NCBI GenBank assembly: GCA_001560915.1
Contig: CP014214.1
Location: 1-64,000, forward strand
Length of the DNA stretch: 64,000 bases
Direction: 5' to 3'
Origin: a methanogenic archaeon ISO4-H5
Lineage (GTDB): Archaea > Thermoplasmatota > Thermoplasmata > Methanomassiliicoccales > Methanomethylophilaceae
Shown: positions 34,364 through 38,135 of the stretch, piece after piece
How positions within the stretch are numbered: position 1 is the stretch's first letter
Layout of the letters: every line of letters starts with the position of its first letter
Translations under genes and position numbers: made by a program
Notes under the pieces: generated by a model
The model's database searches: none
What the model was told of the DNA's origin: nothing
What the model saw: the letters and a program-made list of their open reading frames with translations, nothing else

Positions 34364-34435
34364 GCCACTGTGGCTCAGCGGTAGAGCATCGGTTTCGTAA
34401 ACCGGTGGCCGGGGGTTCGAATCCCTCCAGTGGCT
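34364..34435 (+). tRNA. tRNA-Thr (CGT)
   Basis: Complete cloverleaf of 72 nt: acceptor GCCACTG/CAGTGGC, D-stem GCTC/GAGC, anticodon stem TCGGT/ACCGG with loop TTCGTAA (anticodon CGT), T-arm with TTCGAAT. Discriminator T; CCA is not encoded. Confidence 0.95.
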
Positions 34436-34554: not shown

Positions 34555-34663
34555 TTGTTATAACCCCCGTTAACAGATTGGATTTATTACATATTCTGAC
34601 AATATACATATACGTCCAATATTTACAAATTAACAGAACTTAATGGTTCTAGATGGTTTTACT

Positions 34664-36064
34664 ATGAACAAAAACATGATTATCGCCATCGTCGCAGTCG
34701 CGGCGATAGCGGTCGTAGGTGTATCCGCCTTCGTATTCCTGGGAGGTAACCACTCCAGCAGCGAAGACTATGCAGCCACCTACACCAGTGATATCTCCAC
34801 GGATTCCAGCAAGACCTATGCCGCCGTGGACACCCCCATGAGGGTTTTCGGAAACGTTAACGGAGACATGTATCTCAATGAGGCCGATGTGACCGCACTG
34901 AAGGCACTCATCGATGCAGGCACATGGAACAGTTCCACCCAGCCCCTCGCTGATACCAACCTCGACGGTGTCCTCGATCAGAAGGACGTCGACCGTCTGA
35001 ACAAGTTCATCAAGGGCGAGAAGACCACCATGGCCTACCTCGATTGGAACAACAAGGCCGCAACCGCCCCCTACCCCCTGACCGACTACCTCGGCTCCAA
35101 CTACGGAATCTATACCGAGTTCAGCACCGGCCTGGACATGGGAATCATCCTCGGCATCTACAACAAGTTCACCTACATGGCCAACGGAGACATCGGACCT
35201 TCCGACCTCGACACCGCCATGTACCCCGATGCAGGCAACATCAAGCAGGTCTCCATCAAGACTCCCGGCCTGGAGGCACTGTACTCCGGCAAGGTCCGCG
35301 TCATGATGGGCGACCCCAAGTTCCTCGGAGGATACGTCGCAGATGCGGAGAGCCTCGGATTCACCGTCATCAAGCTCCCCGAGAACCGTTTCATCAACGA
35401 CATCGGCTGCGGTGACACTCTCGTCACCATGGGTGCCCTGTGCAACGCGCAGGACAAGACCAAGGCCTACATCGACTTCTGCGATAAGGTCGAAGCGAAG
35501 ATCCTTGCCGCCAATGCCGCCGTCTCCACGCCTCTGAGCTACGTCATCCCCTACACGGCGCCCGGCTATCTGCCCGAGATCTACGTCGACGGCCGCGGAA
35601 CCGGTACCATGGTCACCTCCGACGTCGAGACAGTGGATATGCTGCCTGTGACCTCCAAGATGTCCACCACCGCCATCGACGGTTTCGACAAGGTCGACGC
35701 AGAGTCCATCGTCGCTCTCGATCCCGACACCTTCATCGTATCGATGTTCGGATACTCGAGCAGCAAGTCCTACACCGTCGACCAGATCAAGAAGGTGTTC
35801 ACCGACTTCGTCGAACTCGGATTCGATGCCTCCACCGCCGGAACCAACGACAGGGTTTTCGCAATGCCCTTCGAGAACTGTTCCCTGGCAGGAATCGCAT
35901 GCGTCCTCGTTCTCGGATCTATGCTCTATCCCTCCGAAATCAACGCCGACGAGGCTTGGGCACTCATGAACGAGTACTATCACACCTTCACGAACTTCGA
36001 CGACAGCAAGGATGTCAAGGACTCCAAGTTCGCGCCTCTGAGCTACGCCGCTCTCAAGAGCTGA
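34664..36064 (+). CDS. ABC importer substrate-binding protein with dockerin-like module
   Basis: A 466-residue extracellular binding protein for an iron-siderophore/cobalamin-type importer. A signal anchor (residues 1-28) is followed by a dockerin type I-like pair of EF-hand repeats: N64-x-N66-x-D68 in GNVNGDMYLNEADVTALK, and D97-x-N99-x-D101-G...D108 in DTNLDGVLDQKDVDRLNKF. A periplasmic-binding fold (about 125-466) follows, with NDIGCGDTLVTMGALC and ESIVALDPDTFIVSMFG. I start at ATG 34664. The permease and ATPase genes follow. A dockerin fold fused to a transporter binding protein is unusual. Confidence 0.88.
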   Translation: MNKNMIIAIVAVAAIAVVGVSAFVFLGGNHSSSEDYAATYTSDISTDSSKTYAAVDTPMRVFGNVNGDMYLNEADVTALKALIDAGTWNSSTQPLADTNLDGVLDQKDVDRLNKFIKGEKTTMAYLDWNNKAATAPYPLTDYLGSNYGIYTEFSTGLDMGIILGIYNKFTYMANGDIGPSDLDTAMYPDAGNIKQVSIKTPGLEALYSGKVRVMMGDPKFLGGYVADAESLGFTVIKLPENRFINDIGCGDTLVTMGALCNAQDKTKAYIDFCDKVEAKILAANAAVSTPLSYVIPYTAPGYLPEIYVDGRGTGTMVTSDVETVDMLPVTSKMSTTAIDGFDKVDAESIVALDPDTFIVSMFGYSSSKSYTVDQIKKVFTDFVELGFDASTAGTNDRVFAMPFENCSLAGIACVLVLGSMLYPSEINADEAWALMNEYYHTFTNFDDSKDVKDSKFAPLSYAALKS

Positions 36065-36076
36065 ACATAAACCCCA

Positions 36077-36111
36077 GTGCCCCCGGGAGGGGGCACACCC
36101 CTTTTCGGGGT
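36077..36111 (+). terminator. Tandem hairpins between binding-protein and permease genes
   Basis: GTGCCCCC-GGGA-GGGGGCAC (36077-36096), followed at once by ACCCC-TTTTC-GGGGT (36097-36111), in the 54-bp gap. No T-run follows, so they more likely stabilise the upstream mRNA 3' end or attenuate read-through than fully terminate. Confidence 0.6.
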
Positions 36112-36118
36112 ATGGAAC

Positions 36119-37276
36119 ATGCAATTCACAAGCGACATTGAAAAGGACATCCTGCTCTGCGACGACGTGCGCGCATCCGTGGACACATGGACGGCGGACG
36201 TATCCTCGGACGGCCGCTTCTCCGACACACTGGACAAGTACCAGCGCAACACCCGCAAGAAGATCCTGGTCATCCTGGGTCTTCTGGTCGCAGCATGTCT
36301 GATAACCGTTTTCTCATTGCAGTACGGTGAGATCAGCACAGGCGTCGCAGGTACCCTCCAGATCATATGGAACGAGATAACCGGTGCCGGCAACCCGAAC
36401 AACGCGATCACCAAATGGACCCTCTACAGGGCGCCGCCCGTGCTAGGTGCGGTCATCGGAGGCGCGGGTCTCGCGGTCTGCGGAGCGGTCATGCAGAGCA
36501 TCCTCCGCAACCCCATGGCCGATCCCTACACGACCGGTATCTCCTCCGGCGCATCGTTCGGTGCGGCGATAGGCATCACCGCCCCCGTGCTCCTTTCGGG
36601 CCTTGCGCTCACGGAGACGCAGGGACTGACCGTGATGCTCGCTTTCATCTTCTCGATGGTGCCGGTCCTGGTGATCCTGGCCATATCGAAGATAACCAAC
36701 GCCTCGCCCGTGACCATCATCATGACCGGTATCGGTATCATGTACATCTTCAACGCCGGCACCAGCATCATCCAGCTGAAGGTGGGCAGCTATTACACCG
36801 CCGCCCTCGAGAACTGGCTGATGGGAAACGTCCAGCTCGTCGGCTGGGACGATCTCCTGCCGATGTTCGTCATCGTGCTGACCGGAGTCATCATAACGAT
36901 GTTCCTGGCGAGCAAGATCAACGTCCTCTCCACCGGCGACGAGAACGCCAAGGCCATGGGAATCAACGCCGACAGGCTCCGTATCATCTGCATGGTCCTG
37001 ACCGCCATCGTCAGCGCGGGGGTCATCAGTTTCACGGGTCTCATCGGATTCGTGGGTCTGGTCTGTCCCCACATCGTGAGGATGTTCGTGGGCGCGGACA
37101 ACAGGTATCTCATTCCTGCCTCCGCCGCCTTCGGAGCGGCACTCATGGTGGCCGCGCACCTGATCGGAAAGAACATCATCTCCCCGACGCTGATCCCTGT
37201 GGGAATAATCATGTCCTGCATCGGCGGACCGGTCTTCATCTGGCTGGTCGTCAGGAAGAACAACAGCACGTGGTGA
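36119..37276 (+). CDS. FecCD/BtuC-type ABC importer permease
   Basis: Membrane subunit of the importer, 385 residues with a ~60-residue cytosolic N-terminus and about 9-10 transmembrane helices starting near residue 60. Family motifs: YRAPPVLGAVIGGAGLAVCG, then QSILRNPMADPYTTGISSGA, GLIGFVGLVCPHIVRMFVG and GGPVFIWLV. The predicted start, ATG 36119 (MQFTSDIE), follows the hairpins. The N-terminal extension is longer than usual for the family. The ATPase gene begins 4 bp after its stop. Confidence 0.93.
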   Translation: MQFTSDIEKDILLCDDVRASVDTWTADVSSDGRFSDTLDKYQRNTRKKILVILGLLVAACLITVFSLQYGEISTGVAGTLQIIWNEITGAGNPNNAITKWTLYRAPPVLGAVIGGAGLAVCGAVMQSILRNPMADPYTTGISSGASFGAAIGITAPVLLSGLALTETQGLTVMLAFIFSMVPVLVILAISKITNASPVTIIMTGIGIMYIFNAGTSIIQLKVGSYYTAALENWLMGNVQLVGWDDLLPMFVIVLTGVIITMFLASKINVLSTGDENAKAMGINADRLRIICMVLTAIVSAGVISFTGLIGFVGLVCPHIVRMFVGADNRYLIPASAAFGAALMVAAHLIGKNIISPTLIPVGIIMSCIGGPVFIWLVVRKNNSTW

Positions 37277-37280
37277 TCCC

Positions 37281-38135
37281 ATGACAGAAACAGATATACT
37301 GGATATAGGGATCGAAGCCAAGAAGCACCGTACCGTACTGGAGCTCAGGGACGTGGATTTCGGTTACGACGAGGGACACATAGTCCTGCACGACATCAAC
37401 CTGAAGATCGACGAACCCGGGCTGTACTGCATCATCGGACCCAACGGAGTGGGCAAGTCCACCATGGCGAAGTGCGTCAGCAAGATCGTCAACCCCCTGA
37501 AGGGGGAGGTCCTCATCAACGGCAGGAACATCTCCGAGATGTCTCACAAGGAGGTGTCGAAGGTGGTCGGGTACGTGCCGGCCTTCTCGCAGGACGTGTT
37601 CTCCATGTCGGTCGTCGACACCATCATGGTCGGCAGGCACAACCACCGCCGCTGGGGTTCCGTTTCCAAGGACCTCGAGATGGTGTACAAGGCCATGCGC
37701 ATTCTGCGCATAACCGACCTGGCGGACAAGCAGTTCAACTCCCTCTCGTCCGGTCAGCATCAGAAGGTCTCCATCGCCAGAGGATTGGTCCAGGAGACCG
37801 ACGTACTGATCCTGGACGAGCCCACCGCCAACCTGGATGTGAAATTCCAGGTGTACGTGATGGAACTGCTGAGAGGTATCGCCGAGAAACTGGGGATCAT
37901 CATCCTGACGATCTGCCACGACTTAAACGTCACCGCGAAGTACTCCCACAAGGTCATCATGCTGGAGCGCCCGGGCAGGATCTACGCCTACGGCACCCCG
38001 GAGGAGGTCCTCACCTCGGAGAACATCGAGAAGGTCTACGGTATCCGCTGCAGGGTCGTCAACGAGGGCGAGTTCGGGGTACCCCTGGTGATACTCGGAG
38101 CGCCCATAATGAGCGACGAGATCGACGGGACCTGA
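37281..38135 (+). CDS. FecE/BtuD-type ABC importer ATPase
   Basis: ATP-binding subunit of 284 residues: Walker A GPNGVGKST (about 54-62), Q-loop PAFSQDVF, signature LSSGQHQKVSIARGL, Walker B LILDEPTANLD and H-loop CHDLN. The N-terminal ~25 residues extend beyond the usual start. With the preceding permease and binding protein it forms a complete iron-complex/cobalamin importer; the substrate cannot be told from sequence. Confidence 0.94.
   Translation: MTETDILDIGIEAKKHRTVLELRDVDFGYDEGHIVLHDINLKIDEPGLYCIIGPNGVGKSTMAKCVSKIVNPLKGEVLINGRNISEMSHKEVSKVVGYVPAFSQDVFSMSVVDTIMVGRHNHRRWGSVSKDLEMVYKAMRILRITDLADKQFNSLSSGQHQKVSIARGLVQETDVLILDEPTANLDVKFQVYVMELLRGIAEKLGIIILTICHDLNVTAKYSHKVIMLERPGRIYAYGTPEEVLTSENIEKVYGIRCRVVNEGEFGVPLVILGAPIMSDEIDGT

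Follow-up and report, generated by a model that had tools for sequence, protein, structure and literature searches.

The substrate-binding protein (SBP) described here carries a pair of EF-hands that, judged by Pfam, by a sequence profile matched against the PDB, and by the predicted fold, is a real homologue of the type I dockerins. We consider it probable that this module is a permanent N-terminal subdomain of one large archaeal family of FecB/BtuF-type SBPs, stabilized by calcium, and does not dock to cohesins. The modules as a whole form an archaeal, importer-dedicated subfamily of the dockerin fold, most likely providing a rigid, calcium-stabilized N-terminal subdomain of the SBP.

The window, i.e., the whole stretch of DNA that was analyzed, comprises bases 1–64000 of the 1,937,883-base single-contig genome of ISO4-H5, a rumen member of the order Methanomassiliicoccales whose published genome is numbered from the Cdc6-1 start (PMC5011839). 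A Cdc6-like gene, named from its sequence, lies at the start of the window. The binding-protein ORF of 466 aa runs from the ATG at 34664 to the stop at 36064, and a second in-frame ATG is located upstream, at 34643. An Rfam search placed a tRNA gene (34364–34435) upstream of this gene; no riboswitch or other RNA was found upstream of the operon, the Rfam matches being tRNAs only. The features of the locus are as follows.

34664..36064, + strand: 466-aa SBP belonging to a FecCD-type ABC importer; from the N terminus: anchor, linker, dockerin-fold module, and class III binding domain
34670..34741, + strand: hydrophobic N-terminal segment, residues 3–26, a putative membrane anchor or uncleaved signal (from the sequence; model helices H3–20 and H23–26, low confidence)
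34742..34813, + strand: predicted flexible linker from anchor to module, residues 27–50 (pLDDT <50 at residues 27–47)
34838..35029, + strand: predicted dockerin-fold EF-hand pair, the module (Pfam, profile searches, AlphaFold2, Foldseek)
34853..34888, + strand: EF-hand loop 1, NVNGDMYLNEAD; position 1 is the importer-specific Asn (module alignment)
34952..34987, + strand: EF-hand loop 2, DTNLDGVLDQKD, with the full set of calcium-ligand positions (module alignment)
35024..36061, + strand: FecB/BtuF-type class III ligand-binding domain, immediately after the module; first strand at residues 121–126 (profile search, model, Foldseek)
36116..37276, + strand: FecCD-family permease gene (PF01032, E 6.5e-79), with a possible earlier GTG start at 36077
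37281..38135, + strand: importer ABC ATPase gene (PF00005, E 1.1e-29)

The class III fold of the binding domain was indicated by Foldseek (4hn9_A, E 1.8e-11, TMt 0.71), with which the profile search agrees; the Pfam family PF01497 gave 17 bits on this protein, below its cut-off. With regard to the ligand class (corrinoid, heme, siderophore), no NCBIfam equivalog above cut-off was found for the binding protein. The operon is kept in G054, from a different genus within the family, with identities of 45% for the SBP, 62% for the permease, and 82% for the ATPase. In several archaea, genes for CobN and for CbiX/CfbA-like chelatases were observed near module-bearing binding proteins (L174, L006, L150, L151, L182); because these genes adjoin them, tetrapyrroles or metal chelates are hinted at as the ligands of those relatives.

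The first-pass annotation had recognized two type I dockerin EF-hand repeats in the protein, and Pfam, the PDB dockerin profile matches, and the predicted fold agree in upholding this. In the whole-genome search, Pfam Dockerin_1 (PF00404) matches the module with an E-value of 3.3e-5, above the curated cut-off, while a search with the binding protein alone gave 21.5 bits, slightly short of the 22.9 required. A profile built from 31 modules (the window copy included) matches the window module at 5e-21, and the same profile recovers solved type I dockerins in the PDB: 1daq at 3.9e-9 and 1ohz at 3.8e-8. Loop 1 reads N-V-N-G-D-M-Y-L-N-E-A-D (residues 64–75) and loop 2 reads D-T-N-L-D-G-V-L-D-Q-K-D (residues 97–108), and the calcium-ligand positions are invariant or nearly so among the modules. 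These E-values, together with the conservation, rule out a chance dockerin match. The annotation had also staked its reading on the dockerin helix pattern appearing in a structure prediction. This pattern is present: the AlphaFold2 model of the full protein (pTM 0.86) has helices at residues 73–85 and 106–117 with pLDDT 90–98 across the module, the three-helix dockerin fold is seen in the predicted module, and the module modeled in isolation reaches a pLDDT of 91.9. In a Foldseek search with the isolated module, type I dockerins rank first with a probability of 1.00 (best 2vn5_D, TMt 0.85, rmsd 1.3 Å); their E-values of 0.07 or more are weak, as is expected because the module has only 65 residues. 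Calcium binding by the two loops is plausible from their ligand residues.

A close association is seen between the module and the binding domain. In 94 of the 96 distinct modules, the SBP domain begins 0–12 residues after the module; both exceptions are found in one protein (L112), where the sequence behind the first of the two likewise looks like an SBP. The placement between the membrane anchor and the binding domain, as the first-pass annotation had described it, is confirmed in the window protein; the anchor side of it turned out to be incidental, since relatives with the anchor elsewhere keep the module directly N-terminal to the SBP. One such relative is a paralogue in the same genome (L148, a 566-aa ORF at about 305 kb), in which an N-terminal signal-like segment precedes the module and the SBP, and the membrane anchor lies at the C terminus. 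In the Methanothrix-type proteins, the module starts shortly after a signal-like peptide. Other proteins (L106, L082, L109, L110, L111) contain two or three tandem module–SBP units, and there an Ig-like sequence or the preceding SBP takes the place of the anchor in front of the module. The 1324-residue ORF of L106 (G070:C40:76500-82000) contains three such units, and several further G070 and G077 proteins were seen to have two, some of them behind Ig-like sequence. A simple spacer role beside the anchor was considered and is rejected because the module stays with the SBP where the anchor is C-terminal or replaced. In the AlphaFold2 model, confidence remains high without a break from the module into the first SBP strand, and the anchor linker is predicted to be disordered. 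Moreover, among 50 proteins the pairwise module distances correlate with the SBP distances (Mantel r 0.50; 0 of 2000 permutations), the mean identity being 42% for the module versus 20% for the SBP.

The occurrence of the module was surveyed in the same genome, in the order, and beyond it. In ISO4-H5, 18 FecCD permease matches were counted, and nine of its binding proteins carry the module. Among its other FecCD-linked binding proteins, four (L026–L029) have a different N-terminal region instead; a transcobalamin-like (DUF4430) domain was considered for this region, and Pfam gave no support for it on the two proteins checked (L026, L027). L146, a protein encoded next to a permease at about 411 kb, lacks an N-terminal module, and a 770-aa ORF at about 511 kb (L147) appears to be a binding protein and a FecCD permease fused in one frame. 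Within the order, 42 of 81 genomes gave strong matches to the module profile, and a single genome may have as many as 19 copies; the figure of 42 is the 43 genomes at the search threshold minus G011, where the best match (34 bits) falls on a D-type dockerin within a 3236-residue ORF. One module-bearing ORF (G010:C22:203510-203692) contains one in-frame TAG, possibly read as pyrrolysine or possibly marking a disrupted gene. The phylum search had suggested that the module is confined to Methanomassiliicoccales, and a scan of named-genome contigs overturned this: the module–SBP fusion was found at least in Methanosaeta/Methanothrix, Methanocrinis, Methanosarcina, Methanocellaceae, Bathyarchaeota, and Nitrososphaeria. 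The window protein, used as a single query against the named-genome contigs, gave no match.

A clear difference is seen at position 1 of loop 1. This residue is Asn in all 94 importer module pairs scored with D or N allowed, and Asn was also found in importer modules at loci chosen by a Pfam search, a set independent of the module profile. The same position is Asp in the cohesin-linked and other surface-protein dockerins of the order, and in the bacterial dockerins among the matches listed. Type I dockerins are defined by Asp at position 1 of both loops; the importer modules have Asn in loop 1 and Asp in loop 2. Known dockerins contact the cohesin through helix positions, and the corresponding positions here are among the most variable: in the nine copies of the ISO4-H5 genome, loop positions 10, 11, 17, 18, and 22 vary and give no common recognition motif.

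The first-pass annotation had proposed a genome-wide search for cohesins and further dockerins. In the ISO4-H5 genome, the one Pfam Cohesin match above cut-off lies at 1.676 Mb; it belongs to a surface protein (L001) with its own C-terminal, canonical D-type dockerin. The neighbor of L001 is a 2475-residue ORF with BspA-type leucine-rich repeats (LRR) and a possible N-terminal cohesin (L001/L009, 1,668–1,677 kb). This second cohesin is weak (hhalign probability 36%), and its high profile score was discounted as circular because the sequence was in the query alignment. The two proteins may form a cohesin–dockerin pair in this rumen methanogen. Among the 81 genomes, cohesins above cut-off were found only in G000, G029, G070, and G077, and a profile made from the order's own cohesins yielded no additional genome with a convincing match. 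Detectable cohesin is thus absent from 38 of the 42 module genomes, the four with cohesin including that of ISO4-H5; very divergent cohesins may escape the profiles, and many of the genomes are drafts. Outside the order, no cohesin match was obtained in 13 of the 14 module-bearing archaeal genomes, among the matches listed. The presence of the module shows no significant association with cohesins (p 0.12), whereas non-importer dockerins, among the matches listed, occur in five genomes (G000, G011, G029, G070, G077), and in four of these five a cohesin scores above cut-off (p 3e-6). The list of these dockerins was obtained by comparing hit tables by eye, with a 43-residue scrap in G074 left unplaced.

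These observations bear on the suggestion of the first-pass annotation that the module attaches the importer to a cohesin-bearing surface. A working dockerin would plug the SBP into a surface cohesin (L001 or the neighboring LRR giant) and cluster the importers on a scaffold. True dockerin homology and fold, the cohesin in the same genome, and the report from ANME archaea of ABC binding proteins that bear dockerins, alongside multi-cohesin scaffoldin-like proteins (PMC9012536), speak for it, and the cohesins in four module genomes, that of ISO4-H5 included, count against the reading that we favor. However, most module genomes have no detectable cohesin, the L001 protein already has a D-type dockerin of its own, the nine copies do not share recognition residues, and the module is joined to the SBP without a flexible linker. 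The docking reading is unsupported because of the cohesin-free genomes, the fusion and co-divergence of the module with the SBP from which it is inseparable, and the variable exposed helix positions, and we regard it as very improbable.

Docking to a conserved partner other than cohesin is a different matter: the dockerin fold might now be a cohesin-independent part of the importer that docks the SBP onto, e.g., the FecCD permease, at one of its outer loops, or onto the cell surface layer. The module is about twice as conserved as the SBP, a difference that an external partner, itself conserved, might also explain, and the tandem proteins retain one module per binding domain. Against this, no candidate partner was identified, and the extra conservation sits at the calcium ligands and the core while the exposed helix positions vary; this explanation is therefore judged unlikely, and if true, it would represent a new class of dockerin interaction. 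A calcium sensor, with Ca2+ as the switch for ligand affinity or transport, would be consistent with the nearly invariant ligand positions, and the Asn-type loop 1 could be a second, weaker, tunable site. Yet many divergent paralogues use the same module, extracellular calcium is seldom low enough to signal, and the EF-hand Ca2+ of the FusA binding protein, which is structural, lies away from the ligand cleft (PMC8938411). We hold a sensor to be improbable.

A stabilizing or positioning role is probable because the module forms an inseparable part of the binding protein and is widespread in archaea without detectable cohesin. In this calcium-stabilized subdomain, extracellular Ca2+ would fill loop 2 and, more weakly or perhaps, loop 1; Asn at loop 1 position 1 is unusual in a tight calcium site, which counts against this best explanation. 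The bound Ca2+ would fold and rigidify the module. The module may then pack as a rigid cap against the beginning of the binding domain, as the confidence values of the model suggest, and so stabilize or orient the binding domain above the FecCD permease. The flexible anchor linker would let the module–SBP unit reach the permease.

Dockerins are calcium-binding plugs by which enzymes that digest cellulose are attached to a scaffold, and the database label "dockerin" on importer proteins implies cellulosome-like scaffolding. Asn at loop 1 position 1 and direct fusion to the binding domain provide a simple rule for separating the importer modules from the cohesin-binding dockerins, and the question is raised as to why a calcium-loop domain lies directly before the ligand-binding domain in so many archaeal importers. 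In the literature on dockerins of Methanomassiliicoccales and Methanomethylophilus, in which few subscription papers were covered, no title or abstract concerned importer modules.

Several known systems can be compared with the module. Like the type I dockerins (PF00404; Xyn10B and CelS of C. thermocellum, CelA of C. cellulolyticum), it has two F-hand calcium loops with a helix each; unlike them, it begins loop 1 with Asn instead of Asp, lacks a shared recognition motif, is fused almost without a linker to a binding domain, and is found without cohesins. Archaeoglobus fulgidus reportedly has paired cohesin and cohesin–dockerin proteins. L001 (cohesin and dockerin) and the LRR protein (possible cohesin) of ISO4-H5 resemble that pair and are separate from the importer modules, their dockerin being D-type. 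With the FecB/BtuF/TroA-like class III SBPs (PF01497), the window protein shares the common fold and the operon with a FecCD permease and an ATPase; the solved class III SBPs listed align only with the part of the protein after the module. FusA has one EF-hand motif inside a cluster G SBP, in contrast to the separate two-loop domain found here. In ANME archaea, dockerins are known on the substrate-binding components of ABC importers, TroA-type included, alongside scaffoldin-like multi-cohesin proteins, and were read as possible docking (PMC9012536). Dockerins on ABC binding proteins were thus already known; what appears to be new is that the modules are separate from cohesins and bear the Asn signature.
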